Source of the DNA: a virus
Virus record (IMG/VR): IMGVR_UViG_3300022413_000006
Location: 1-34,404 of that record
DNA length: 34,404 nucleotides
Strand: one strand, 5' to 3'
This document shows, piece by piece, positions 17,426 to 34,404 of the stretch (positions are counted from its first letter, which is position 1; every line of letters begins with the position of its first letter). The notes under the pieces were generated by a model, which ran no database searches, was not told where the DNA came from, and saw only the letters and a list, made by a program, of their open reading frames with translations. The position numbers and the translations under genes were made by a program.

Positions 17426-18262
17426 ATGGCAGTCGTAAATCTAAAACAAGAACTATGGATGGCGACTATTGTCACCTTGCTTGAAAAAGCGAGTACGGCA
17501 ATGGCTACCTCCAACACAAATATTGTTCGTGGCAAAGGTGCGGATACATACCACATCATTGGCACGGCAGAAGTGACAACCCAGGATACTCCTGCAGTTG
17601 GAACAGCAATCACATACTCCGAAGTTAGTGACACGAATACTGACTTCCTTCACAACTTGGACAAGACGTTCGGGATTGTGATTCCAGACCGAGACAAGTT
17701 AGAGTCTATGTCTGGCTGGGAAGCGTTGTATTCTCAACGTGGCGGTTACCAGTTGCGCAATGACTTTGATGTCGCTGCTCTTGGTGATCATGCAACGTGG
17801 ACTGACGCTACTGGCGTACCTACGACCGTTGGAACTGATGCTTCTGGAATTCCAGACTTCTACTCCTCGATCGCAGAGCAGCTGGACAGCGCAGACCTTC
17901 CTCCTGAAGGACGTTATGTCATCGTTAATCCTAACGTAATCCAGGCCACTCGTCTGTGGCTTGCTGCTAAGGGCACTGTCCTTGGTGATCAGGTTAGCAT
18001 TAATGGTTTCGTGACCAGGATCTTCGGAATGGACGTTCTGATGTCCCGAAATCTAACGACAGTTACTACTACTGTTCACGGTCGTGCAGGCGTGTATGGT
18101 GAAGGTGTAGCTGCAAATGTACTTGGTGTTCAGGAAATTGAAATGCTCCGAGACAAGGATGAGTGGAATAGTTATATCCGTGGTCGTTTGATTGCTGGAT
18201 ACAAGACTTATGCCGCTGCTCGTGTCTTTGACGTTTCGTTCGAAGATCAAGTGCTTGCGTAA
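17426..18262 (+). CDS. Major capsid protein, copy 1
   Basis: A 278-aa HK97-type capsid protein candidate. It opens with MAVVNLKQELWMATIVTLLE and has the V-T-T-Q-D-T-P-A-V-G-T-A strand motif near residue 50 and the GWEALYSQRGGYQLRND helix region near 97. SGIPDF at 140-145, the RYVIVNPN strand near 163 and the IRGRLIAGYKTYAAARVF end (251-268) complete it. This order is common in major capsid proteins that follow a GP20-like scaffold. A near-identical-length paralogue follows. By hand, 191 of 278 positions match without gaps (about 69%). Confidence 0.85.
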   Translation: MAVVNLKQELWMATIVTLLEKASTAMATSNTNIVRGKGADTYHIIGTAEVTTQDTPAVGTAITYSEVSDTNTDFLHNLDKTFGIVIPDRDKLESMSGWEALYSQRGGYQLRNDFDVAALGDHATWTDATGVPTTVGTDASGIPDFYSSIAEQLDSADLPPEGRYVIVNPNVIQATRLWLAAKGTVLGDQVSINGFVTRIFGMDVLMSRNLTTVTTTVHGRAGVYGEGVAANVLGVQEIEMLRDKDEWNSYIRGRLIAGYKTYAAARVFDVSFEDQVLA

Positions 18263-18353: not shown

Positions 18354-19190
18354 ATGGCTGTTGTAAACCTAAAACAAGAGTTGTGGGCTGCCACAATAGT
18401 AACGCTTCTTGAGAAGACGAGTACTATTGTTGGTGTCTCCAACAGAGATATAATTGAAACTGATGGTGCAGATACTTACCGAATAGTTGGAATTGGTGAA
18501 GTCACTACTCAAGATACTCCTGCCGTTGGCACTGCAATTACATATTCACAAGTTACAGACACGAATCAGAGCTTCACGCATAACGTGGACAAGACATTTG
18601 GGATAATCATCCCAGATAGAGACGTCTTAGAGTCTATGGAGGGATGGGAGGCTTTGTATTCTCAACGTGGTGGGTATCAGTTAAGGAATGAGTTTGACGC
18701 TGCTGCGTTAGGTGATTTTATCAACTGGTCCAGTACTACTGGAGTTCCTACAACAGTGGGAGCGGATGCGTCTGGGATTCCAGACTTCTTCTCTTCCTTG
18801 GCTGAGAATATGGATAGCGCAGATCTTCCTGGAGGAGGAAGGTATATTATCGTCAATCCAAGTATGGTTCAAGCATTGCGGATATGGTTCGCTGATAAAG
18901 GAACTGATATTGGTGATGACGTTAGTGTTAATGGTGCTGTAGCAAATGTGTTTGGAATCGATGTATTCATGTCTAGGAACCTCACTAATCTAACTGGTAT
19001 AGATCAAGGTCTTGCTGGGGTGAAGGGGCAGGGTATAGCGATTAACGTGCTAACGCCAGATCTAATTGAGACGCTAAGAGATAAAGATGGTTGGGAAAAC
19101 TATGTTCGTGGACGCTTGATTGCTGGTTACAAAACGTATCAGTCAGATCGAGTATTCAGAGTTGCTCATGGTGACAACGTATTACAGTAA
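18354..19190 (+). CDS. Major capsid protein, copy 2 (paralogue)
   Basis: A second 278-aa capsid protein, aligning end to end with copy 1 without gaps. Conserved blocks include the first 20 residues but one, VTTQDTPAVGTAITY, LYSQRGGYQLRN, SGIPDF and RGRLIAGYKTY. Differences concentrate in residues 22-40, 122-129, 210-220 and 234-240, likely exposed loops. DNA identity is clearly lower than protein identity, so the duplication is not recent. Both keep all blocks, so both are probably functional: a mixed capsid, a pentamer/hexamer split, or a decoration role. It has its own strong SD. Confidence 0.85.
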   Translation: MAVVNLKQELWAATIVTLLEKTSTIVGVSNRDIIETDGADTYRIVGIGEVTTQDTPAVGTAITYSQVTDTNQSFTHNVDKTFGIIIPDRDVLESMEGWEALYSQRGGYQLRNEFDAAALGDFINWSSTTGVPTTVGADASGIPDFFSSLAENMDSADLPGGGRYIIVNPSMVQALRIWFADKGTDIGDDVSVNGAVANVFGIDVFMSRNLTNLTGIDQGLAGVKGQGIAINVLTPDLIETLRDKDGWENYVRGRLIAGYKTYQSDRVFRVAHGDNVLQ

Positions 19191-22554: not shown

Positions 22555-23221
22555 GAAGTCTAAACTTGACCATGGCTTGACATGGGATCTATACGAGGAC
22601 TTTGAACGGGTATTAGAGCTCCACTTGCTTGGTGAAGAAGTTACATGTCCATCAGATTGTGATGAATGTGCGAAACTATTAGACCTTCCTTTTGTTGTAT
22701 CTGGCATTGAATTCCGCAGGCTCACAGGTGGAGCTCTTCTGTGGCTCCAAGAAGTAGCAGCTGACGCATTTCCAGAAGGATCAGTTATTGGCCAGTATGC
22801 TATAGGGTTCGCTATGGCACATTCCTATGATCAGGAAGTGTTTTACGAACTATGCACAAAAAAACTGGCTGTCAAGGCTGTAAAAAAGTGGATGAGGAAG
22901 AATCCTCTCAGCATGGACCACTTGGCACTTGTTTTTCAAGCTCTACTATCATCGTCATCTGGAGGCGATGAGCCAAAAGGTCTTAATATGATCCCCTTCT
23001 ACGATGGTATTATTTCTCAGTATGGCAAAAGCTTGAACTATTGGAAGTGGCATGTCCCTCATGAAGTGGCGACAATGCTTGTTGATGCCATGTTTATTCG
23101 AAAGGCGAGAGAGCAGGGGATAAAAGATACAGAGAATCCTTACTCTCAATACATGACAGCTGATAGAGCGATGTGGAAAAGAGAGCAGCAAATCATAGCG
23201 GAGAAATGCGATGCCGGATGA
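22499..23221 (+). CDS. Putative tail assembly chaperone (240 aa)
   Basis: A mostly helical 240-aa protein just before the tape measure, the place of the G/GT-type chaperones that hold the tape measure during tail assembly. Notable are a Cys cluster VTCPSDCDECAKLL near 49-62, KAVKKWMRKNPLS near 127-139 and a polar end with MWKREQQIIAEK. The ATG at 22499 has no good SD, so translation probably depends on the overlapping 54-aa gene, by re-initiation or -1 frameshifting. Its stop overlaps the tape measure start by 11 bases. Confidence 0.55.
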   Translation: MKLKIEPKPLNDLAKQTIEKSKLDHGLTWDLYEDFERVLELHLLGEEVTCPSDCDECAKLLDLPFVVSGIEFRRLTGGALLWLQEVAADAFPEGSVIGQYAIGFAMAHSYDQEVFYELCTKKLAVKAVKKWMRKNPLSMDHLALVFQALLSSSSGGDEPKGLNMIPFYDGIISQYGKSLNYWKWHVPHEVATMLVDAMFIRKAREQGIKDTENPYSQYMTADRAMWKREQQIIAEKCDAG

Positions 23222-24626
23222 AGAGCTAAAATACAGGCTTAGAACAGAGGATGAGACTGAAAAAGGTCTCAAAGAATCTGAGAGAAGTCTAAAAGCTTTC
23301 AGTCGCAAGGCTGGGGACATAGCTAAGGGTATTGGCAAGGCATTCGTTGGCGCTTTTGCAGCTGCATCAGCTGGTATTGCTACGTTTGTTGGCTTGTCTA
23401 TCCCAAAATTCCTTAAGCAGCAGCGTGCGATAGGTGATGTTTCAAGGGCTCTCAAGCAAGTAGGTGTTGACGCTTCGTCAAGAGTCCCAGAATTAGAGAA
23501 GTTTGCATCAGCGATACAGGATATAACAGGTATAGGAGATGAGGATTTACTTGGTCTTCAATCAGAGGCTCTGCGCAAAGGTTTAGATCCAGCAGCAATA
23601 GAAGAATTTACAATTGCAGCTGTTGGGCTTGCTTCCCAAATAGGTGTAGAGCTTCCAACAGCTTTCGATTTGCTTACCAAATCAGCGAATGGACAAACTG
23701 AAACACTTAGTAGATATGGCATAGTTGTAGATCAATCTCTCGACACTCAAGGGAAGTTCAATGAGGTCCTTAAGCAGGGCCAGGAAGGTTTTGCGCTAGC
23801 TGCTGAAGACTCTGAAGACCTTGGGAAAAGACTTGAAGCCCTTAAGGGAAGGTGGGGAGATCTTCAAGAAGCTGTGGTAGAGGCTGTCTCAGGTATTACA
23901 GGTGATGGAAGTGACGGGATCACTCTTATTGAGAACCTTATCCTTGATGCTACTGATGCGGTAGGGATATGGGCAGAGGCTTGGGGTGAATGGGCAGACT
24001 TTGCAATGAAGGCCATCGGCTCTGTTGGTGGTGTCCTGCAAAGCTTTGGAGATAGGATAGCAGGCTTCTCCGCTATACTTGGAGCTCTGTCAGCAGGTTC
24101 AAGTTTTTCAGAGGCATTGGAAATTGCAAGAGGACAAGTTGGTGAGAGGATCTCTGCAAGGGAACAAAGAGGGAGTCGTATTGCTGAAGCAAGGGAGAAT
24201 GCTCGTAGGCGTAGAGAGCAGAGATTGGCAGATAGTAACCAAGTGGTAGCTGATGCTTTAGCTCAAGGTGATGTTGTATCTGTCAATGCTATAGCTGCCA
24301 AGAATAAGGACAAGGTAGCCAAGGAAGATAATAAGGCCAAGCAAAAGGAAAGACTCCGCAAAGTTGTGGAGGATATCTCCATACCATCTTTGGTCCGAGA
24401 AGAAATTGCAGCGAGTCCTACTGAGTCAGCTATAGATATTGGAGACATATCTCTATTCAATAGAGGAGCAACTTCGATCAGGAATATAAGCAGGTCTCTT
24501 GGATCCTCAAACCTTGGTCAAACAGTTGAAGAGCTTGCGGCAAAGGAGAACAAGAAGAATATCGCAAAGACTGCTGAAGGTATTCAGGAGCTAAACAAGA
24601 AGATAGGAGCGGCGAGTATAACATAA
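23211..24626 (+). CDS. Tape measure protein
   Basis: A 471-aa protein. Helical N-terminus (LKESERSLKAFSRKAGDIAK), then an Ala/Gly-rich hydrophobic segment (AFVGAFAAASAGIATFVGLS, near 48-67). SRVPELEKFASAIQDITGIG and TAFDLLTKSANGQTETLSRY follow, the latter resembling the conserved tape-measure core found in many siphoviruses. A second hydrophobic stretch and a charged C-terminal coiled coil (ISAREQRGSRIAEARENARR) follow. At roughly 0.15 nm per residue, the usual rule, the tail would be about 70 nm. The stop overlaps the next start (TAATG). Confidence 0.82.
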   Translation: MPDEELKYRLRTEDETEKGLKESERSLKAFSRKAGDIAKGIGKAFVGAFAAASAGIATFVGLSIPKFLKQQRAIGDVSRALKQVGVDASSRVPELEKFASAIQDITGIGDEDLLGLQSEALRKGLDPAAIEEFTIAAVGLASQIGVELPTAFDLLTKSANGQTETLSRYGIVVDQSLDTQGKFNEVLKQGQEGFALAAEDSEDLGKRLEALKGRWGDLQEAVVEAVSGITGDGSDGITLIENLILDATDAVGIWAEAWGEWADFAMKAIGSVGGVLQSFGDRIAGFSAILGALSAGSSFSEALEIARGQVGERISAREQRGSRIAEARENARRRREQRLADSNQVVADALAQGDVVSVNAIAAKNKDKVAKEDNKAKQKERLRKVVEDISIPSLVREEIAASPTESAIDIGDISLFNRGATSIRNISRSLGSSNLGQTVEELAAKENKKNIAKTAEGIQELNKKIGAASIT

Positions 24627-24985
24627 TGGCTGTAACTGGTGGAGAGAGTGATGGTTATAAGCTGGATAGCTGGGCTGAGTCTATCGAGTATAGGGAGGTG
24701 TCTACTGATGGCACTGAAGAGAATACCAAGCAGCAGGAGAGAGAGAATAAGACTTTCAGAAGAACTCAAATTCATTTCTCAAAGAATGCTGCAATAACTG
24801 CAATCTCTGCTGATACAGGCTCTACTATAGTGAGCCCAAGCGCAAAGATATCAGATGGAACTACAGCAACAGCTACAGGAACATGGATTATAGCGTCCCA
24901 TGAGTTTATTGATGGTGCTCCTGGAGAAGGAAAGATAATTGAGAGACAGGTGTTGAAGCTGTTCTCTTCGTGGTCGGATTCGTAA
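24626..24985 (+). CDS. Tail protein of unknown role (119 aa)
   Basis: No family recognised. N-terminal acidic and polar part with coiled-coil-like EENTKQQERENKTF. The C-terminal half is rich in Thr/Ala/Ser strands (GTTATATGTWIIASHEFID). By position after the tape measure it is probably a distal tail or baseplate part. Start and stop both overlap neighbours in TAATG, so it is made as part of a coupled block. Confidence 0.6.
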   Translation: MAVTGGESDGYKLDSWAESIEYREVSTDGTEENTKQQERENKTFRRTQIHFSKNAAITAISADTGSTIVSPSAKISDGTTATATGTWIIASHEFIDGAPGEGKIIERQVLKLFSSWSDS

Positions 24986-25599
24986 TGGGTGATGTATCAA
25001 ATAGTGAGTTTGGGCAGTATTCAGCAGTAGATGATTTTGTCGTTGTCCCTAAGCAGTTTGTAAATGATGTGTCCCGAGTACTTGAGCTCATCAATAATGC
25101 TCGTGGTCAGAACGGCATAAACATCGACACCACTGGTGATGCCATGGTGATCTCTGGCAGAAGAGGCAGCGGACAAGATTTTAGCAAGTATTCTTTCAGT
25201 TGGCTACTAACCCAGCCGACTGTATCAACTGATGCAAAAGTGACTCTAAGAAAGGGTTATGTTGAGCATCATGGATATGACCCTATCACTAGCACAGCAA
25301 AGACCTTGTATACCCCCTCTACTGAGGTCGAGAGAGATATAGATACTACTGGGTACTATGTATTTGTCATCAGGTATACTCTGTCTACGAATGTAGTATC
25401 AGTGCCACTGCCTTTATTCCATGCAACAGATGCAGAAATGGCCTTAGATCTTGCAGTAGATACATCAGCAGCGCTACTAAAGCCGATAATAACAGTTCAT
25501 CTGGATTTAGGTACATCTCCAGGTGTATTAACTTTGGAGCACGTGCATAATGCGCCAGGCAATAATATATTTCTGCCTCCTGTTTTTATTCCAACTTGA
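24985..25599 (+). CDS. Tail/baseplate protein (204 aa)
   Basis: No family recognised. Starts at MGDVSNSEFGQYSAV in TAATG overlap with the previous gene; an upstream GTG would add five residues. It has a helix KQFVNDVSRVLELINNARGQ, then beta-rich sequence with a Gly/Arg segment (SGRRGSG), suggesting a fibre-base or receptor-binding-protein carrier. The last 50 bases overlap the signal-peptide region of the next gene. Confidence 0.6.
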   Translation: MGDVSNSEFGQYSAVDDFVVVPKQFVNDVSRVLELINNARGQNGINIDTTGDAMVISGRRGSGQDFSKYSFSWLLTQPTVSTDAKVTLRKGYVEHHGYDPITSTAKTLYTPSTEVERDIDTTGYYVFVIRYTLSTNVVSVPLPLFHATDAEMALDLAVDTSAALLKPIITVHLDLGTSPGVLTLEHVHNAPGNNIFLPPVFIPT

Positions 25600-26758
25600 T
25601 GTAAACGCACAATGGTCATCCAACTTATGGCCAGCAGCATCTAATTGGTTTGTGAGTGGTCAAAGTGTCTATGAATTGAATCAGGCATTGAGTGAAAGGT
25701 ATGAAATCATCAATGGTGTTGAGTGGACCAACAAGATGACAAATGCTCCATTGTGGGTATCCAGAACCCATCTTATGGATATAGAGGATGAATGTTTCTT
25801 GATGTTTAACTCTTTCATTGACCCTGACAAGGCTGATGCTGGAGGAATCTTCTTTGATGATCATTTTTCAACCAATACATCTATGCCTGTGTACAATTCT
25901 ACAAGACGAGATGAAATAATTGGTGGTGCTACTGGAATAACCAATGGAGAAACCGGTGCTGACGGATGGTGGGTGAGCAGGAAAACTCTAGATGCATTGA
26001 AAGCCATGATTGATGCAATGAAATGGACGGGTGAAGAGGACTCGTATGTTGTAGAGACCAACTATAATACAGTTATTAATGGCAGGACTATCTTTTCATC
26101 AAATGTATGTACATTCACTCATGAAAATGTTTCTCAAACATGGGCTGATGAATTTCCTTCATATCTTGCAACATACACTAATGGGCATGATTCTGTTCAC
26201 ACAAATTTATTCACAGGTATTTTCAATGCAAAATATAGAGTATCTATGACATTTGCTCTTTGCCCAGGAGGTTCTAACGATTTAATAGAGATTAATGATG
26301 GTCAGCCAGCTCTTACAGATAATATTTATGGGATAACATACCAGTCAGTAATTTCTCAGTCAGGGCAAACAAATTATTCTCCAGGGTATATAGTTTATAA
26401 TATGGTTGAGACAGCAAATGTATTCACAGTTTCATCTGATACATGTGTGACCGATGCTCATGGAGCTATAACAAATGTTTGGCCGGAAGGTGACGGAGTG
26501 TTTAATCGATTTACAAATTCATCTCTCGTTGCTACTGTGGATGTAGGGTCTGTTACAAATATGTTGATATCAACTTTACCAATAGAGACATTAGAACCTA
26601 TAGAGCCAAAAATTAATGCAGGGCCAAATGGAGCTAATTGCACATATGCTGTTAAGGCTGGATCTACTTATGTTGCAAATTTTACGTCTGCCGGAAGGCT
26701 GTCAAAATCCATAGTTAAATGGGACGAAGGGCCGACACCATTTCTTTACATCGAATAA
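25550..26758 (+). CDS. Large secreted-like virion or surface protein with signal peptide (402 aa)
   Basis: Begins with a textbook secretion signal: MRQAIIYFCLLFLFQLDVNA, with probable cleavage after Val-Asn-Ala (residue 20). The rest is rich in Asn, Thr and aromatic residues (NLWPAASNWFVSG, WTNKMTNAPLWVS, TGADGWWVSRKTLDALKAM) and looks beta-rich. No enzyme motif is visible. By position it is a tail-tip or adhesin protein, yet the signal peptide implies export through Sec. Alternatives are an exported cell-surface protein, or a start further in at a later Met with the signal read as noise, which is unlikely given how good it is. Confidence 0.62.
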   Translation: MRQAIIYFCLLFLFQLDVNAQWSSNLWPAASNWFVSGQSVYELNQALSERYEIINGVEWTNKMTNAPLWVSRTHLMDIEDECFLMFNSFIDPDKADAGGIFFDDHFSTNTSMPVYNSTRRDEIIGGATGITNGETGADGWWVSRKTLDALKAMIDAMKWTGEEDSYVVETNYNTVINGRTIFSSNVCTFTHENVSQTWADEFPSYLATYTNGHDSVHTNLFTGIFNAKYRVSMTFALCPGGSNDLIEINDGQPALTDNIYGITYQSVISQSGQTNYSPGYIVYNMVETANVFTVSSDTCVTDAHGAITNVWPEGDGVFNRFTNSSLVATVDVGSVTNMLISTLPIETLEPIEPKINAGPNGANCTYAVKAGSTYVANFTSAGRLSKSIVKWDEGPTPFLYIE

Positions 26759-26768
26759 AGGTGACCAC

Positions 26769-29700
26769 ATGAAAAACCTAGCTGCAACAATAATGATACT
26801 GTTAGCATTAGTCGCATTAATGGCTTTTGCCTGCAGTGCTGTTTCTGCCCCAACATTCCAAGTGGATTTGGATTCACAGAAGCCAGAAAAGAAGTGGAAG
26901 ATACCAGCTGCATTTGCTGGATCTACGCCTACCTACCGAACAATCCTTAAGGAAAACGGTATTTTGTTCACAAATCTTACTGGTTGGGATGGTGTGATGC
27001 ATATCTTCACCAATTCTACTGATAATACTTCATGGCAGTTCCCTTCAACTGGATCTGGAACTGGATATTTTGATTTTCGTATAGAGCTAAACCTTGAGCC
27101 GGACAGTTACAGGTCTGAGTTTAGATTCACTAATTCAGTTGATGGGATAGTATGGGGTGCGCAAGGGCGCATAGAGGTAGAAGACTCTCCTTCTGGCGGC
27201 TTGCTGTCAACTAATAGCTTGTTTGGCACTCTCAACTTCGACAACTTTATTCAGTCTGGAACTATTTCAAGCAATGTTAACGTAAATGCGAATCTTGCTG
27301 GTAGTGGTGCATTACTTACAGATCTCAATCTTGGAGCTATTGGTGATGTAATCCAGGTAGGAACCCCTGCTGCTTGGTTGGATTGGAATTGGCCTACTGT
27401 GTATGAGAGAGATTCTCATGTCTATTTCGGATATGTCGGGTACACAAATGACCAGTATGTTGCAAGGTACAGCATAGCCTCTAACACTGTTGATGTGAAG
27501 TTCACAGGTGACAAGTGGGGTCACGATTCCCATAACTCACCTGTTGTGTATCATGACGGAACAAATATTTGGATTGCTCAAACTGGTCATAATGGTGGCC
27601 CAACTGTCCAGATTGGAGTCTTTACAAATTGGGCTGATGTAACAGATCTCGATATTCCGCAATATCGCCTCACAAATGATGATGTTGTAACCTACTGCAA
27701 CATGGCTCCTTTGAAGGACAGGATGTATCTAATGCAGAGGCTTGGAACTAGTAACTACATTTACAGATTTAGTACAGATAGTGGTGCAACATGGAGTGAT
27801 GATAAGTTGTGGCTTCACAACTCTCAAGATAATGGCCGTCCATATCCACAGATGAGAGAAGGCTTGCTGAGGGATGAGATCTTATTCCCTGTCCATGGTC
27901 ATGTTGCAATTACAAACAACAGTGATATCCATGTTGGCGTCATTAAGCATGAGGCTGGTGATCATAGGTTTTACACTAACTCTACTGGTTTCTTTGTTAT
28001 GGATGGAACAGAGCCTGTAATTGAAATGACAAACATATATTCTGCTGTTCAAACAACTTCAACGAACAGCTTATACCTAAATGATATTATCGATATAGAT
28101 ACTACTGACGGGCTTGCTTTGCTTTATACAAGGTTTGACTCAACGTTTGGTGGAGACACAAAAAATCCAAGAACGATGGTAAGTACTGGCTCTATAGATG
28201 GAGCTTGGGTTGAGTTTGATCTAGGATCTCAAGGGGTGCATTTTGGAGATAGCAGGATATCAAACAACGTTCCTTGGGCTGCTTTTGACCGTCGTACTGT
28301 TAATCCACTTCGAGTGTGGTCTTCAAAGAATGATCCAGAAAATGTGGCTCAGATGTTTGAGTTAAAAAATGGATCATGGACTCTTCAATGGCAGGGTCCT
28401 GAAACAGAAAACTTTTGGTGGAAGCCTCGTGGAGTAGCTAATGCTGATCAGTCTGGAGTCATGTATCTAGACAACTCTGATCATATTGAGTTGTACCCAT
28501 ATTTTTCATCATTCAAGCCAACACGTCCTTGGATTGTATTGGACAGAATAACTAATGGGAAAAGAATGCTTCCTGTCGCTTCTAACCCATGGGAGCTTTA
28601 TGGTCAGCACGGGGAACAGGCTGTATTTAATAGCGGATCAAAGGATGGGCCTATAGCAACTATTGGTGGTTTGAGAACAATGACCACTGACGGAGCTATG
28701 CTTCAAATCACTAATAAAGAGAACGGTGTAGTCTTTAGAGTTGCTGAAGACGGCCATACTCAGGTTGGTGATGTGCATAGCACATTTGACCCAACTGATA
28801 GACTTGTTTTCACATCATCTCCTGAAGGAATTAGAATGTTAACTGATGATGTGAGGATGATAGATATTTATTCATCTTCTATTATCATTAATGAGGCTGG
28901 AGAAGATAGAAACTTCCGTGTTGAGACGGATAACGATATATCTGCATTGTATGTAGATGGCGGAACAGATGAAGTTGGTATTGGAACAACAACTCCTGCC
29001 AGCAAGTTGGAAGTTGTGGGCACTGTTACAGCAACAGCATTCGTTGGTGATGGTTCAGGACTGACAGGTCTTCCAGGAGGTTCTGGAAGCTGGGATCATA
29101 CCATGACTCAAACTGTATCTGGAGCAGGATTCAATATTGAAAATCTTGGGTCTCTTACCATAACTAACATTGCAGATGCTTCTATTCTTTTAGCAGCTGA
29201 TTCGAATAATTCTGGCGAAAACGACAACGCTCTATTTGAGCTTTCCCAAGATGGTGGTGGAGTAAGAGCATTAATTGGAACTGTTGGAGATGCAGGTGTT
29301 CAATTCACAGACTCGCTTTCTGATTCATTGTATTTCGAGATTAAAGCAGGAAGTCCTCAAGATATACAATTCGCAACTGGCGCAACTGGAGTTACATCAA
29401 ATGACGGGGCAGCCAGGTTGACCATCCTTGGGACTGGAAACGTTGGTATAGGAACTGTAACTCCTTCAACAGAACTTCATGTTGATGGTGATATAACTGC
29501 GGACAACGTATTAGCCAGACTGCTTAATGTGTCTGATGCAACTGATGATCTGAGATGGACTGGTGTAGATAATTTGGAGATAAGGCACAATGGAGCCATT
29601 AACCATCAATTTAGCGGAGCATCTACCGTTTTTAATCAAGGTGGGCTTGATATTAATTTCAGGGTTGAGTCTGATAATGATATACAAGCTTTATATGTGG

Positions 29701-31433
29701 ACGGTGGGACTGACGAAGTGGGTATTGGCACTACTACACCAGCTTCTAAATTGGAAGTGGTAGGTACTGTTACAGCAACTGCGTTTGTAGGAGATGGTTC
29801 TGGGCTGACTGGTCTACCAGGTGGATCTGGAGGGTGGGACCATGTTATGACAAACAATGTTGATGGTGCAGGTTTCTCGGTCACAAACATATCAAGCTTG
29901 GTTACTACTGGAACAGTTACTGCTGGATTTTTTGTTGGTGATGGATCAGGTCTTACTGGTCTTCCTAGTGGCGGAAGCGCTTCTGGCATTGTCGTTGTTG
30001 CAAAAGCTTCTGATGAGATTGTTAACAATAGTACAACATATCAAGATGATGATGAGCTTGTAATACCTTTAGAGGCTAACACTTCATACGGAATGGATGC
30101 TCATCTATTGATAGCAGCTCATGCTAGTGCTGATATGAAGATTCAGTTTACTGCTCCTTCTGGAGCAACAGTTAGAGGTAATGGTCCATCATCCTCTGTG
30201 CTTACTGAGAACGATTTGACAGCAACACAATTCCAAGCACTTGGAGGGACTGCATCAAGACGGATCAAGTTCTTCAGAGGAACTGTGAACGTTGGTGCTA
30301 CAGCTGGCAACCTTGTTGTTCAATGGGCTCAAAACACAGCTCATGCATCTGACGCTACGATGTTCTCCAACTCATGGGTTTCTATCACAAAACTTGATGG
30401 AAGTAATTTTGTTGCAGTGCCTGGTGGAGTTGAGGCTGATCCTTCTTTCACGGCATGGACAAATACTGAGTCTACTGCTGGAAGGATGCTTCAGAATCCC
30501 GGAGACTCTAATGATGAGATTTCGTGGCTAACTACTGATACTCTTCAAATTCAGCACAACTCTGTTGTCAATCATAGGTTCTTATCCAACTCAACAATTT
30601 TCAATGAGACTGGTGCTGATATCAACTTCAGAATCGAGTCTACAACTAGTCCACATGCTCTCTATATAGATGGATTGAGTGGCCTGGTAGGAATAGGCGC
30701 ATCGTCTCCTGCTTCAGCATTCGAAGTGGTTGGTACTGCAACAGTTACAGCTGTACATGGAGACTTTGAGAATTCAAGTGATGCAACTGATGATGTAAGG
30801 TGGAATGGAGTAGATAATCTAGAAATACGTCATAATGGAGCTCTAACGCATCAGTTCTCAAGCTCTTCTACTGTACTCAATCAAGGAGGGTTGGATATCA
30901 ACTTCCGTGTTGAAACAGATACTGATGCGCAAGCCATCTATGCTGACGGTGGAACTGGGAATGTCGGGATAGGGACTACAAGTCCATCTAACAAGTTGGA
31001 AGTGGCTGGGTCCATAACTGCAACATCATTTGTAGGAGATGGCTCTACGATTACCAACAGGCGTAAGGGTGTTCAGATGATAATTGTTGACTTTACGACA
31101 CAGGTCACTGTGGGTGACGGCAAGATGTACTTTCACATTGATCCGTCTCTGGCGGGTATGAATCTGGTTGATGTGCATGCTGAAGTTATCACTGCAGGAA
31201 CTACTGGAACAACAGATATCCAAGTCCACAACTTGACACAAGCTGCAGACATGTTGACTACAAAGCTGACAATAGATTCAGCAGAGACTGGCTCGGATAC
31301 TGCTGCAACTCCTGCTGTTATAGACACAGCAAATGATGATGTTGCCGAGAATGATCTTATCAGGATTGATTGCGACGCAGTGTCGACATCTGCTCCACAA
31401 GGATTATTGGTTACACTGGGATTTAATGACTGA
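26769..31433 (+). CDS. Giant tail fibre/depolymerase-like protein with signal peptide, BNR-type propeller and repeats (1554 aa)
   Basis: Residues 1-27 form a signal peptide (cleavage probably after SAVSA). About 190-585 resembles a BNR_4-type beta propeller, the fold of several polysaccharide lyases and sialidase-like enzymes. KWGHDSHNSPVVYHDG and IAQTGHNGG (about 248-276) recall the H-x-x-P and H-N-G-G part of that fold. From 690 to 1410 it has repeats centred on V-G-I-G-T-T-x-P-x-x-K-L-E-V-x-G (Val at 736, 892, 984, 1307, 1399) and G-D-G-S-G-L-T-G-L-P linkers, typical of trimeric phage fibres. A distinct beta domain lies near 1075-1225 and another at 1425-1554. The likely role is binding or cutting host surface glycans. 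No S74 chaperone peptidase is seen. Confidence 0.7.
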   Translation: MKNLAATIMILLALVALMAFACSAVSAPTFQVDLDSQKPEKKWKIPAAFAGSTPTYRTILKENGILFTNLTGWDGVMHIFTNSTDNTSWQFPSTGSGTGYFDFRIELNLEPDSYRSEFRFTNSVDGIVWGAQGRIEVEDSPSGGLLSTNSLFGTLNFDNFIQSGTISSNVNVNANLAGSGALLTDLNLGAIGDVIQVGTPAAWLDWNWPTVYERDSHVYFGYVGYTNDQYVARYSIASNTVDVKFTGDKWGHDSHNSPVVYHDGTNIWIAQTGHNGGPTVQIGVFTNWADVTDLDIPQYRLTNDDVVTYCNMAPLKDRMYLMQRLGTSNYIYRFSTDSGATWSDDKLWLHNSQDNGRPYPQMREGLLRDEILFPVHGHVAITNNSDIHVGVIKHEAGDHRFYTNSTGFFVMDGTEPVIEMTNIYSAVQTTSTNSLYLNDIIDIDTTDGLALLYTRFDSTFGGDTKNPRTMVSTGSIDGAWVEFDLGSQGVHFGDSRISNNVPWAAFDRRTVNPLRVWSSKNDPENVAQMFELKNGSWTLQWQGPETENFWWKPRGVANADQSGVMYLDNSDHIELYPYFSSFKPTRPWIVLDRITNGKRMLPVASNPWELYGQHGEQAVFNSGSKDGPIATIGGLRTMTTDGAMLQITNKENGVVFRVAEDGHTQVGDVHSTFDPTDRLVFTSSPEGIRMLTDDVRMIDIYSSSIIINEAGEDRNFRVETDNDISALYVDGGTDEVGIGTTTPASKLEVVGTVTATAFVGDGSGLTGLPGGSGSWDHTMTQTVSGAGFNIENLGSLTITNIADASILLAADSNNSGENDNALFELSQDGGGVRALIGTVGDAGVQFTDSLSDSLYFEIKAGSPQDIQFATGATGVTSNDGAARLTILGTGNVGIGTVTPSTELHVDGDITADNVLARLLNVSDATDDLRWTGVDNLEIRHNGAINHQFSGASTVFNQGGLDINFRVESDNDIQALYVDGGTDEVGIGTTTPASKLEVVGTVTATAFVGDGSGLTGLPGGSGGWDHVMTNNVDGAGFSVTNISSLVTTGTVTAGFFVGDGSGLTGLPSGGSASGIVVVAKASDEIVNNSTTYQDDDELVIPLEANTSYGMDAHLLIAAHASADMKIQFTAPSGATVRGNGPSSSVLTENDLTATQFQALGGTASRRIKFFRGTVNVGATAGNLVVQWAQNTAHASDATMFSNSWVSITKLDGSNFVAVPGGVEADPSFTAWTNTESTAGRMLQNPGDSNDEISWLTTDTLQIQHNSVVNHRFLSNSTIFNETGADINFRIESTTSPHALYIDGLSGLVGIGASSPASAFEVVGTATVTAVHGDFENSSDATDDVRWNGVDNLEIRHNGALTHQFSSSSTVLNQGGLDINFRVETDTDAQAIYADGGTGNVGIGTTSPSNKLEVAGSITATSFVGDGSTITNRRKGVQMIIVDFTTQVTVGDGKMYFHIDPSLAGMNLVDVHAEVITAGTTGTTDIQVHNLTQAADMLTTKLTIDSAETGSDTAATPAVIDTANDDVAENDLIRIDCDAVSTSAPQGLLVTLGFND
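29442..29717 (+). repeat. 92-residue fibre module, copy 1 (partner at 30687-30962)
   Basis: Encodes residues 892-983: V-G-I-G start, then S-D-A-T-D-D-L-R-W, VDNLEIRHNGA, HQFS, NQGGLDINFRVE and YVDGGT. Residues 1307-1398 (30687-30962) repeat the same order at the same length. Partial copies precede residues 736 and 1307. DNA copies differ at many silent positions, so the protein is kept while the DNA has drifted. Confidence 0.75.
30687..30962 (+). repeat. 92-residue fibre module, copy 2
   Basis: Second full copy of the module at 29442-29717, residues 1307-1398. VDNLEIRHNGA and LNQGGLDINFRVET are nearly the same as in copy 1. The region right after V-G-I-G differs most. Confidence 0.75.
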
Positions 31434-33094
31434 TGAAATACTCTAAAGCATTACCGTCATATCTGATTGCTGCTCTGTTATCTTCATGTGAGGCTGTTAC
31501 AGCAGGAACGTTCTTCTGTGAGTTCGACTCCAGGCCAGGGCTGAATGTAGGGGCTCAGCAAGGTGTGTGTACAGATGGTACCAACTTCTGGACTACAGCA
31601 GGAGATGATCCAGACACTGATCCAGCATCAAACAACCATAATATGATGCTAAGGCGTTATGACTCGTCATGGACTATAGTAGCTTCTAATGACGTCATCG
31701 CAGATCTTCCAGGTGATGCCACACAGATTAATGGCCTGGAATACAAAGACGGCGTTGTTTACGTTGGTGTCAATGACCACGTTTCAGGATCTCAGAATGG
31801 GAATGGCGGATGGATAATGGAGTATGATCCTGTCACTCTAACCAATCTTGCTACTCATACAGTTCAGACCAAAGAATGTGAAGGTGGAGCTTGGGGAGGA
31901 GCGGCTGGAACAAACTTTCTTGCTGTCTACCATAACTCTAGAACGGTTAGTGTATATAACTCATCCTTTACATTCATCTCTGATCATTTCCTTGACTACC
32001 CAAACGATGTTGGGCGGTATTATCAGGATGCAGCATGGCATGACGGTCACTTGTTCTGCCCGGTTCACAATAGCGCTCAGTGGCCTCATACTGTTGACGT
32101 GTACAAATGGGAGGGTGAGACCAACTTTGTACGTGCTGGAAGGATGCTACAACCTACATGGGAGAGATCAGCAACTCTGAGAAAGTCTTCTCAAGGTTTA
32201 GATTTTGATCCTGTAGAGAGCGGTGTTATATGGTTTGCTGAACGAAACGCTGGAGGAGGAGAGAGTGAAGGTCCTCATAACGTAGTAAAGGCGACTTTCA
32301 ATGCTACAGCACACCCAGATAATGAAGTGTTTTCGAACGCTGTACAGAATCTGGACAATCTATTGTTCTATCTTCCACTAAGAGAGACTACAGGAACAAA
32401 TTTAGTTGACAATTCAGGCGCTGGTAATGATTTCACATTAAGGGTTAGTGACACGTATGATCTTGATGTGTGTGGAGACATACTTGGTCCTACGTATTGC
32501 GAGAAGGGCCGTGGTGTCGCTCTTAGCGAGAAGGCTTACCTGCACCATCCTAATGAGGCTGAATTCAACTTCACGTCGTCTGACAGCTTCTCATTTGGCA
32601 TGTTTGTCTTTAGGCAGCATGCGATTGACAACAATGAATGGATTCTTAGCAAGGGAATAGGTGGAGACTCTCCGTCAGGGAACAATCACAACTATGCTTT
32701 GCTGATTGATTTGACGACTCCTGTAAATCGGTTTGACTTCCTTATGGAGGAATCTGATGGAACAGACCATGTCTGCAAGTCAAATACCACTGTAGAGGAG
32801 GGTAAGGCATACTTTGTAGTGTGTGTCTATGACGGATCATCTACAAATATGAGCATTTACGTCAACGGAGTTCTTGACGGAACAAACAATGATCAATTTA
32901 CAGTCAATACAAATGTTTATGATCTGACATTCAACGCTGCAAGTAATGGAGATAATGGAGGAATAGATCAGACAGCTGTAGGTCTATTTGAGCCATTTAT
33001 GACATCTGACGTCTTAACCGGTGCTGAGATATCTGCTTTATGGGCTAAGTCTAAGTCAACTAAAGATTTTGTGCAAAGATCCATAGCATATTAG
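31433..33094 (+). CDS. Propeller plus LamG-like lectin protein with lipoprotein-type signal (553 aa)
   Basis: The N-terminus MKYSKALPSYLIAALLSSCE has a lipobox Leu-Ser-Ser-Cys (Cys19), so it could be lipid-anchored; an alternative is signal-peptidase cleavage after AVTA. Residues 25-300 contain repeated short strands with Trp/Tyr (TDGTNFWTTAGDD, YKDGVVYVGVND, TNFLAVYHNS), like a beta propeller. Residues 310-545 resemble a LamG/concanavalin-like jelly roll: LDNLLFYLPLRE, FSFGMFVFRQHAI, AYFVVCVYDGSSTNMSIYVNG, then a final helix. Such domains bind glycans. It starts within the stop of the giant fibre (TGATGA). Function is probably glycan recognition, either on the virion or on the cell surface. 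Confidence 0.62.
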   Translation: MKYSKALPSYLIAALLSSCEAVTAGTFFCEFDSRPGLNVGAQQGVCTDGTNFWTTAGDDPDTDPASNNHNMMLRRYDSSWTIVASNDVIADLPGDATQINGLEYKDGVVYVGVNDHVSGSQNGNGGWIMEYDPVTLTNLATHTVQTKECEGGAWGGAAGTNFLAVYHNSRTVSVYNSSFTFISDHFLDYPNDVGRYYQDAAWHDGHLFCPVHNSAQWPHTVDVYKWEGETNFVRAGRMLQPTWERSATLRKSSQGLDFDPVESGVIWFAERNAGGGESEGPHNVVKATFNATAHPDNEVFSNAVQNLDNLLFYLPLRETTGTNLVDNSGAGNDFTLRVSDTYDLDVCGDILGPTYCEKGRGVALSEKAYLHHPNEAEFNFTSSDSFSFGMFVFRQHAIDNNEWILSKGIGGDSPSGNNHNYALLIDLTTPVNRFDFLMEESDGTDHVCKSNTTVEEGKAYFVVCVYDGSSTNMSIYVNGVLDGTNNDQFTVNTNVYDLTFNAASNGDNGGIDQTAVGLFEPFMTSDVLTGAEISALWAKSKSTKDFVQRSIAY

Positions 33095-33129: not shown

Positions 33130-33555
33130 ATGAGCACAACTATATTCGCAGATGAGCCAAAGGGTACTGGGGGCGGTCAATCTGGTAGAAGGCGGAGGAT
33201 TGAAACATCCCTTGGTCCTCCCTTAAAAAAGATTAACCTTGGTGGCCTTACATTCGTAACATCAGCTACTACTTTGATAGCTCTTGTTTCTGGTGGTGTA
33301 TGGATAGGACAGCAAGTTGAACACTACAAGTCATTAACAGCTGACAGATGGACAGGGAAGAATGAGATAGAGGCTGAGTATCTTCGTTCTCTTAAGAATA
33401 GAGATTATGTCCCTATGTCAAAAGCTGAGATACTTGCCATACAAGGTCCAAAAAGAACTCACACTTATCACCAGGTAGATCCAATAATTTTCCCTTCTCT
33501 AGTGCCATCTTCTGTGGCAGCTGAAGTTGACTCTAAGGCAAAAGATGAGGACTAA
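33130..33555 (+). CDS. Single-pass membrane protein, lysis-cluster candidate (141 aa)
   Basis: The basic N-terminus (GRRRRIETSLGPPLKKIN) is followed by one membrane helix at about 37-59 (LGGLTFVTSATTLIALVSGG), then about 80 residues that should face the periplasm, opening with a helical segment (QQVEHYKSLTADRWTGKNEI). The N-in, C-out topology and location beside an Rz1-like gene make it a candidate inner-membrane spanin or holin partner; family not recognised. Its 3' end overlaps the 35-aa gene by 11 bases. Confidence 0.62.
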   Translation: MSTTIFADEPKGTGGGQSGRRRRIETSLGPPLKKINLGGLTFVTSATTLIALVSGGVWIGQQVEHYKSLTADRWTGKNEIEAEYLRSLKNRDYVPMSKAEILAIQGPKRTHTYHQVDPIIFPSLVPSSVAAEVDSKAKDED

Positions 33556-33652
33556 GAGACCAGAGAATCCATTGCTTAAGTGGGGATTCAAACTTCTGCT
33601 CTTCTACGCAGCCTTCGTTCTTTTTCATTCAGTCTTCTCTAGATACCTATGA
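33545..33652 (+). CDS. Tiny single-helix membrane protein (35 aa)
   Basis: MRTKRPENPLLKWGFKLLLF then YAAFVLFHSVFSRYL: a basic cytoplasmic start and one membrane helix (about 13-31). It overlaps the upstream gene by 11 bases, and its stop overlaps the next start in ATGA (33649-33652), so all three genes are coupled. The tight packing is the main evidence that it is real. It may be a holin, pinholin or lysis accessory; this is inference. Confidence 0.58.
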   Translation: MRTKRPENPLLKWGFKLLLFYAAFVLFHSVFSRYL

Positions 33653-34164
33653 CTAAGAGAGCTCCATCGTTAGAAAAGATACAGACACTTAAAACGTTCT
33701 ACGAAGAGTGCGGTTGCTGTGAGGATAGAGATGTAGTCCAAAAGATTTATTCCTTCTCTGAGATGTTTGAATGGCCTAAGTGGATGTCAAACGTGATACT
33801 TACTGCGTACGAGTGTGGTTACCATCATATCAGCGACGGGATATCACATCCATTTGGCTGGCAGTATGGAGCGCAGTTTCTTCATCTAAAGAAGTCTCAC
33901 ATAGGAGTTGGTCATGACCTGCTTTACTACCTATCAAAGGAAGAGAAGGAGAGGCTGGGATTCCCAACAACAAAGGTAGGGGCCGATAAGTGGTTCAGAG
34001 ATGCTTTGGAAGAGAGCGGTGTTGTTGGTGTTCGCGCAGAGATAGCGTACAAGGTATTGATCTTGGTAGGATTCTTTGCGTACGCAGACCACGCGCTACG
34101 TCGCAGAACAGGTTCAGGTTACGGTACTATAGACTATGTCTACTTAATGGTTGAGGAGCTCTAA
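33649..34164 (+). CDS. DUF1353-like protein in the lysis region (171 aa)
   Basis: Contains a patch typical of DUF1353-like phage proteins: HISDGISHPFGWQYGAQF, HIGVGHDLLYYLSKEE (His-Asp), GADKWFRDALEESGV (Ala-Asp) and AYKVLILVGFFAYADHALRR. The conserved His and Asp residues could form a metal or catalytic site. The family's role is not settled, though members are often encoded near holin or endolysin genes. As no standard endolysin is visible elsewhere, this is the best candidate for a lytic enzyme by position, with low certainty. It overlaps the opposite-strand lipoprotein gene by 21 bp. Confidence 0.58.
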   Translation: MTKRAPSLEKIQTLKTFYEECGCCEDRDVVQKIYSFSEMFEWPKWMSNVILTAYECGYHHISDGISHPFGWQYGAQFLHLKKSHIGVGHDLLYYLSKEEKERLGFPTTKVGADKWFRDALEESGVVGVRAEIAYKVLILVGFFAYADHALRRRTGSGYGTIDYVYLMVEEL

Positions 34165-34290
34165 CTGAGCCATGTAAACTACTGTTCCGTCGTCTACAGG
34201 AACTTTATTCAGTATGCTTTCTCTGTATGGTACAGTGCTACATCCACAACAGAAAAATGCCATCGTTAACAGTACAGCTATTTTCTTCAT
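34144..34290 (-). CDS. Rz1-like small lipoprotein (outer-membrane spanin candidate, 48 aa)
   Basis: MKKIAVLLTMAFFCCGCSTV is a lipoprotein signal with Gly-Cys-Ser at 16-18, followed by about 31 residues (VPYRESILNKVPVDDGTVVY and so on). The upstream positions of the lipobox are Cys-Cys, not the usual Leu-Ala, so processing is likely but not certain. Length and form match Rz1-type outer-membrane spanins. A GGGAGG SD precedes the ATG (34288-34290). In the circular genome it is the last gene of the leftward operon and reads into the end of the DUF1353-like gene. The partner spanin may be the 141-aa membrane protein. Confidence 0.66.
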   Translation of the reverse strand: MKKIAVLLTMAFFCCGCSTVPYRESILNKVPVDDGTVVYMAQLELLNH

Positions 34291-34404
34291 CTTAAGGTCC
34301 TCCCAATGAATGATGTGTTGTTGCTGATTGTTTGTGTCGTATTTACTTGTCTCTGTCTTTTAAGCATAATCCTTTGCCAGCTAGCATCTTGACAGAAAAG
34401 AGCG
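34278..34404. repeat. Right copy of 127-bp terminal direct repeat
   Basis: Identical to 1-127. Joining the copies yields a circle in which the leftward operon continues from position 66 into the Rz1-like gene. It should be removed from one end in a circularised record. Confidence 0.95.

Follow-up and report, generated by a model that had tools for sequence, protein, structure and literature searches.

Three consecutive tail-end phage genes with predicted signal peptides, one of them encoding a fibre-type protein

The DNA considered here (the window) is 34,404 nucleotides long and comprises positions 1 to 34,404 of the IMG/VR virus record IMGVR_UViG_3300022413_000006. Towards its right-hand end, past the recognizable tail genes, lie three consecutive open reading frames (ORFs) whose products, of 402, 1554 and 553 amino acids (aa), each begin with a predicted signal peptide. 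We tentatively read the three genes as a late cassette of Sec-exported phage proteins that would act in the host envelope. The cassette has the following features.

25550..26758, strand +: 402-aa predicted exported protein, fold without match; signal at residues 1-20 (25550-25609), predicted cleavage VNA↓Q (rule scorer)
26769..31433, strand +: 1554-aa fibre-type protein with a predicted N-terminal signal peptide (homology and rule scorer)
26769..26846, strand +: putative signal peptide of the 1554-aa protein, residues 1-21 or 1-26 (hydrophobic core, AGGTGA upstream of the ATG)
31433..33094, strand +: 553-aa predicted exported protein with signal, middle region and C-terminal Laminin_G_3 (rule scorer; Laminin_G_3 E 4.6e-10)

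The N-termini are MRQAIIYFCLLFLFQLDVNA↓Q (402 aa), MKNLAATIMILLALVALMAFACSAVSAPTF (1554 aa) and MKYSKALPSYLIAALLSSC↓EAVTAG (553 aa), and all have the n-, h- and c-region layout of Sec signals. They were assessed with a rule-based scorer, which looks for a positive n-region, an uncharged hydrophobic 8-mer core, and either small residues at -3/-1 or a lipobox. The window has 18 non-overlapping ORFs of 200 aa or more, of which the scorer calls exactly three, those for the 402-, 1554- and 553-aa proteins. Whole-protein shuffles are called at 0.56%. The comparison set of viral loci, 798 ORFs of at least 200 aa read from the first start, gives 17 calls (2.1%), five of which come from one family with an N-terminus unlike a real signal. 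At 2.1% per ORF, the chance of three adjacent calls among 18 is about 1.5e-4. Kyte-Doolittle values of the hydrophobic cores are 2.92 (402 aa), 3.54 (1554 aa) and 2.24 (553 aa), levels reached by 8, 1 and 36 of the 798 viral ORFs, respectively. A previous sequence-only reading of the window had proposed signal peptides on three consecutive ORFs, and this is borne out, with exact coordinates.

A second scorer, based on an E. coli-trained matrix, gives the 1554-aa protein a clear pass, places the 553-aa protein just under threshold and rejects the cleavage site of the 402-aa protein. The 402-aa signal is therefore the weakest, and the VNA site proposed for it earlier is called by the rule but not by the matrix. 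The signal peptides of the three ORFs look real by every test applied to their sequences, with confidence declining from the 1554- to the 553- to the 402-aa protein. Proline at position +1 disfavours cleavage by signal peptidase I. The SAVSA↓P site previously suggested for the 1554-aa protein has Pro at +1 and is thus doubtful; by the residues present, cleavage is more likely at AVS↓A or at the lipobox-like AFA↓C, where AFAC22 is a weak lipobox. The LSSC lipobox proposed for the 553-aa protein fits as LLSSC19, but there is also a possible type I site, VTA24↓G.

The translation starts appear well fixed. None of the three ORFs has an upstream in-frame start. The next start downstream is codon 35 in the 402-aa ORF and codon 45 in the 553-aa ORF, while the 1554-aa ORF has codons 9, 18 and 32. 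AGGTGA lies a few bases 5' of the 1554-aa ATG and GGAG lies 10 bases 5' of the 402-aa ATG, while the 553-aa ATG overlaps the stop of the preceding gene (TGATG). These starts bear on the possibility of ordinary cytoplasmic assembly, whereby the hydrophobic N-termini would be uncleaved structural or membrane-tethering segments, or translation would begin downstream. The alternative ATGs at codons 9 and 18 fall inside the 1554-aa signal and would allow this, and the fibre domains are common to signal-less phage proteins. However, the ribosome site fits the first ATG of the 1554-aa ORF, and the other two ORFs offer no start before codons 35 and 45. In addition, three unrelated N-termini independently have n-, h- and c-regions with cleavage sites, and a signal recurs in a related phage, termed G303 here. 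We consider purely cytoplasmic assembly decidedly unlikely.

The 1554- and 553-aa proteins contain recognizable domains, as follows.

28914..29918, strand +: shaft repeats of the 1554-aa protein, NFRVE...VGIGTTTPxSKLEVxG...FVGDGSGLT (phrog_9942, phrog_28668, PDB 8ond, alignment)
29994..30395, strand +: domain at residues 1076-1209 of the 1554-aa protein (Streptomyces phage proteins, tblastn E 6e-19; minor-tail phrog_11699, E 2.8e-8)
31059..31418, strand +: C-terminal tip domain, residues ~1431-1550 of the 1554-aa protein, common to signal-less phage proteins
32531..33031, strand +: Laminin_G_3 (concanavalin-like lectin) domain of the 553-aa protein (E 4.6e-10)

The shaft repeats match phrog_9942 (tail fibre) and phrog_28668, and further copies occur at residues ~1290-1430. 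Residues 818-945 match the Bdellovibrio protein Bd2133 (PDB 8ond; E 8e-7). The repeat homology to tail fibres and the placement of its gene within the tail module identify the 1554-aa protein as a true fibre type, and it is presumably trimeric. The tip domain is found in proteins of Sphingomonas phage Carli, Planktothrix phage Pag-Yong1, Rhodobacteraceae phage LS06 and Polaromonas phage Tiera, none of them with a signal. Separately, a 97-aa signal-bearing protein is encoded near the tip-domain protein of Rhodobacteraceae phage LS06-2018-MD05 (L046 8957-9250).

No virion-anchor family was found in residues 26-170 of the 1554-aa protein, where an anchor of another type is possible. The idea that residues 30-140 are a BppU_N baseplate-attachment domain was rejected: there is no profile match, the hhalign probability is 1.6%, and the tblastn match at E = 5 fell outside BppU_N. 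Two AlphaFold predictions without alignments gave a pLDDT of 31-32, too low to be informative, the value of 32 applying to the domain at residues ~30-145.

For the 402-aa protein, searches of Pfam, PHROGs, NCBIfam, PDB and phage genomes gave no significant match. The middle region of the 553-aa protein has no family match and is propeller-like by eye; its LamG region shows weak matches in three Bacteroidota genomes. No pair among the three proteins is detectably related. Close relatives were found neither for any of the three in IMG/VR nor for the fibre among the genome contigs, and the collections searched hold no full-length homologue of any of them. The earlier description of all three as tail-end proteins is upheld by homology for the 1554-aa fibre; the 402-aa protein has no match to support it and the 553-aa protein only its C-terminal LamG domain.

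The shaft repeat was followed in 21 IMG/VR loci (L003-L023), 17 of which have a readable fibre N-terminus, and in 20 cellular loci (L024-L043), mostly of Bacteroidota. The expectation that phage tail fibres normally lack signals holds for fibres with this repeat, since only one of the 17 has one (L022). This is a 568-aa fibre-repeat protein encoded just after the head genes of an unrelated phage (L022 8735-10441), and those of its relatives whose N-termini can be read begin with different sequences and lack a signal. Ten of the 20 cellular loci are called by the rule and about five more appear signal-like by eye, which indicates that the scorer misses some likely signals. Thus, as far as sequences tell, the shaft repeat is one that serves both signal-less phage fibres and exported cellular proteins; the phage described here joins the phage context with the exported form. 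It has the same repeats and a similar gene neighbourhood as the phage fibres represented by phrog_9942, but differs from 16 of the 17 in having a signal. With the Bacteroidota proteins it shares both signal peptide and repeat; those are cellular genes, however, and many of their products end in a C-terminal coiled-coil tail that the 1554-aa protein does not have.

The mosaic adhesive trimeric (MAT) fibres of Bdellovibrio all carry signal peptides, and have been localized to the surface of the predator or to vesicles that remain in the prey (PMC10769870). The MAT fibre Bd2133 (PDB 8ond; PMC10769870) resembles the 1554-aa protein in its signal peptide, phage-type shaft repeats and exchangeable adhesive tip. 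MATs are surface fibres of the predatory bacterium that encodes them, whereas the 1554-aa gene sits among phage late genes. They also have a conserved ~130-aa beta-rich domain after the signal; residues ~30-145 of the 1554-aa protein are of similar size but show no match to it.

The presence of the repeat in exported bacterial proteins brings up the possibility that these are cargo (moron) genes, i.e. bacterial surface adhesins that were captured and are carried with the late genes, to benefit the host or alter its surface rather than to aid infection. The LamG domain of the 553-aa protein, with its weak Bacteroidota matches, and the lower G+C content of the 402-aa gene (38.5%) would fit such an origin. 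On the other hand, the searches gave no cellular homologue of the full-length proteins, the fibre tip is of phage type, the genes overlap tightly, no integrase or lysogeny module was recognized among the genes searched, and the position is conserved in G303. A cargo role is therefore very doubtful.

Terminase and capsid scans gave only a copy of the same phage, a second contig (L002) with 99.97% identity to the window over 11,375 bp, which ends short of the cassette. TerL alignment then reached true relatives. G303 (IMGVR_UViG_3300044952_001073) has a TerL 45% identical and a portal 33% identical to those of the window phage, and its tail genes are syntenic with the window through the tape measure. 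Past the tape measure there are two small genes, a 276-aa gene and then a 989-aa signal-bearing protein, the N-terminus of which is MKTLFFAVALAACSAFAG↓ARIE... and which carries a motif of Thermus phage and cyanophage tail fibres (E 3e-3 and weaker). Next come a signal-bearing protein of 129 aa, a protein of 165 aa containing a hydrophobic segment, and a lipoprotein. Compared over their whole lengths, no pair of window and G303 cassette proteins rises above the reporting threshold. The similarity of fibre residues 30-140 to the 989-aa protein is no more than suggestive and at best marginal, with two of 2000 shuffles reaching the score. By sequence, therefore, the tail-end position and the export signal recur in G303 while the fibre differs, and the occurrence of a fibre-like protein with a signal at the corresponding place argues against an artefact. 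The recurrence is known from this one informative relative, as others end before the tail-end position. G303 also has a 145-aa signal-bearing protein encoded shortly downstream of the gene in the major-capsid position (L079 13508-13945).

The genes and features surrounding the cassette are as follows.

23211..24626, strand +: tape measure protein (phrog_2854 E 3e-5; matches in G306, E 1.4e-19, and G309; G303 tape measure aligned, z 5.2)
24970..25599, strand +: 209-aa protein in tail-tip position, signal-less (ORF and start analysis)
33130..33555, strand +: 141-aa protein with one predicted membrane segment, holin/lysis candidate, directly 3' of the cassette
33649..34164, strand +: 171-aa protein with a weak DUF1353 match below the curated cut-off, last of the rightward genes
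34278..34404, no strand: direct terminal repeat, 127 bp, identical to 1-127

Because the same 127-bp direct repeat stands at both ends of the window, the genome is that of a complete, circularly assembled phage of 34,277 bp. The repeat, and the overlapping or abutting arrangement of the cassette genes, rule out an assembly chimera, so that the cassette is an integral part of the phage. The tape measure is the last tail gene with clear homology upstream of it. Between the two are only a 119-aa protein and the 209-aa protein, both signal-less, and the 402-aa signal peptide overprints, in a different frame, the final 50 bp of the 209-aa ORF (25550-25599).

With the cassette placed directly before a protein with one predicted membrane segment, and no endolysin recognized in those window genes that were compared with Pfam and PHROGs, one of the three proteins might be a Sec-dependent factor that degrades the wall or glycans of the host. 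None of the three matches a catalytic family, however, and the fibre and lectin domains indicate binding; an exported lysis or host-envelope enzyme is highly improbable.

The interpretation we favour, though short of an even chance, is the exported fibre/lectin cassette. The features on which it is based are present in the sequences: signal peptides, an operon-like position, fibre, tip and lectin domains, and recurrence in a relative. From these we infer Sec export, periplasmic folding, action in the envelope, receptor binding and a benefit to the phage. The cassette would comprise a trimer-type fibre of 1554 aa and two exported partners, one of which is a lectin-domain protein and a possible lipoprotein. 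The proteins would be translated together with the tail genes, cross by the host Sec pathway and be processed. Folding would take place in the periplasm, the 553-aa protein perhaps being lipid-anchored, and the site of action would be in or on the host envelope and not on cytoplasmically assembled tails. Since all three proteins are signal-tagged and a tagged fibre occupies the same place in a relative, their site of action is probably the exterior of the infected cell. The most economical function would be binding of the phage's own receptor, whether glycan or protein, so that neither infected cells nor lysis debris would adsorb progeny phage or competitors. Such control of receptors would operate during and after lysis, in the manner of small exported phage lipoproteins. 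Export is supported by three adjacent signals against a 2.1% background with well-fixed starts, by the exported bacterial proteins to which the same shaft repeat belongs in cells, and by the L022 protein, which has a signal where its relatives have signal-less N-termini.

Exported phage proteins that block receptors are known, e.g. T5 Llp and Rtp45 (PMC9586334, PMC12685063). The cassette proteins may be similar in altering receptor availability, and the possible lipoprotein signal of the 553-aa protein adds to the likeness. Llp and Rtp45 are small periplasmic lipoproteins, whereas the cassette proteins have 402-1554 aa with fibre and lectin domains; the comparison with Llp, Cor and Rtp45 thus concerns mode of action alone, and size and domains set the cassette apart.

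Several points weigh against the favoured interpretation. No other large receptor-binding candidate is apparent in the complete genome, so the virion may need the 1554-aa fibre. The fibre tip resembles phage proteins, one of which has the annotation of a virion structural protein. The exclusion lipoproteins described to date are small. A fibre of 1554 aa would need to pass through the outer membrane or span it, and the searches revealed neither an anchor nor a secretion domain. Among the relatives, the different 989-aa fibre-like protein of G303 has a signal, but the more distant TerL relatives G309, G315 and G316 (35-43%), with readable tail ends, have none on their tail fibres.

The lack of another large fibre keeps a further explanation open, namely that these are virion fibres completed outside the cytoplasm. 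They would be exported, form trimers in the periplasm or at the cell surface, and join the tails only at or after lysis. The tail-operon position, the phage-type tip domain and the exported fibre-like protein that G303 keeps in the same slot are consistent with this. Nevertheless, no attachment domain was identified, BppU_N having been rejected, dilution after lysis would make attachment inefficient unless it were very tight, and the L022 signal stands where relatives have other N-termini. To our knowledge, no tailed phage completes its fibres in this way, and we regard it as possible but rather unlikely. A broader form of the proposal is slightly less likely still: fibres would be exported via Sec and added to virions only outside the cytoplasm (in the periplasm, on the surface or at lysis), the lineage keeping the route while swapping fibres. 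We know of no description of such a two-compartment assembly route for Caudoviricetes.

The usual assumption is that tail fibres are proteins of the cytoplasm and get outside the cell only as parts of a virion, and the literature searched contained no report of Sec signals on the tail fibres of tailed phages. A lineage that retains an export signal on its tail-end fibre despite fibre replacement would have either free exported weapons or receptor blockers, or virions completed outside the cytoplasm. Either outcome would alter the annotation of receptor-binding genes in metagenomic phages, where a signal peptide on a phage protein can pass wrongly for host contamination. It would also connect phage fibres with the surface fibres of predatory and other bacteria that share the same repeats.

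Evidence on the host points both ways. A DUF3127 protein is encoded at 1699-2121 on the minus strand (E 1e-18); this family is matched in Bacteroidota genomes, and among 14 control genomes only in Bacteroides, which hints at a Bacteroidota host. Shine-Dalgarno-like motifs upstream of 23 of the 42 window genes argue against Bacteroidota.

Two other observations were made. Downstream of a phage terminase in IMGVR_UViG_3300005533_000002 (L131 14018-19849) is a row of signal-bearing ORFs, which includes a 1219-aa protein with seven Big_3_5 Ig-like stretches. In the window itself, there is a tandem pair of major-capsid-like genes (17426-18262 and 18354-19190) whose proteins are 69% identical.

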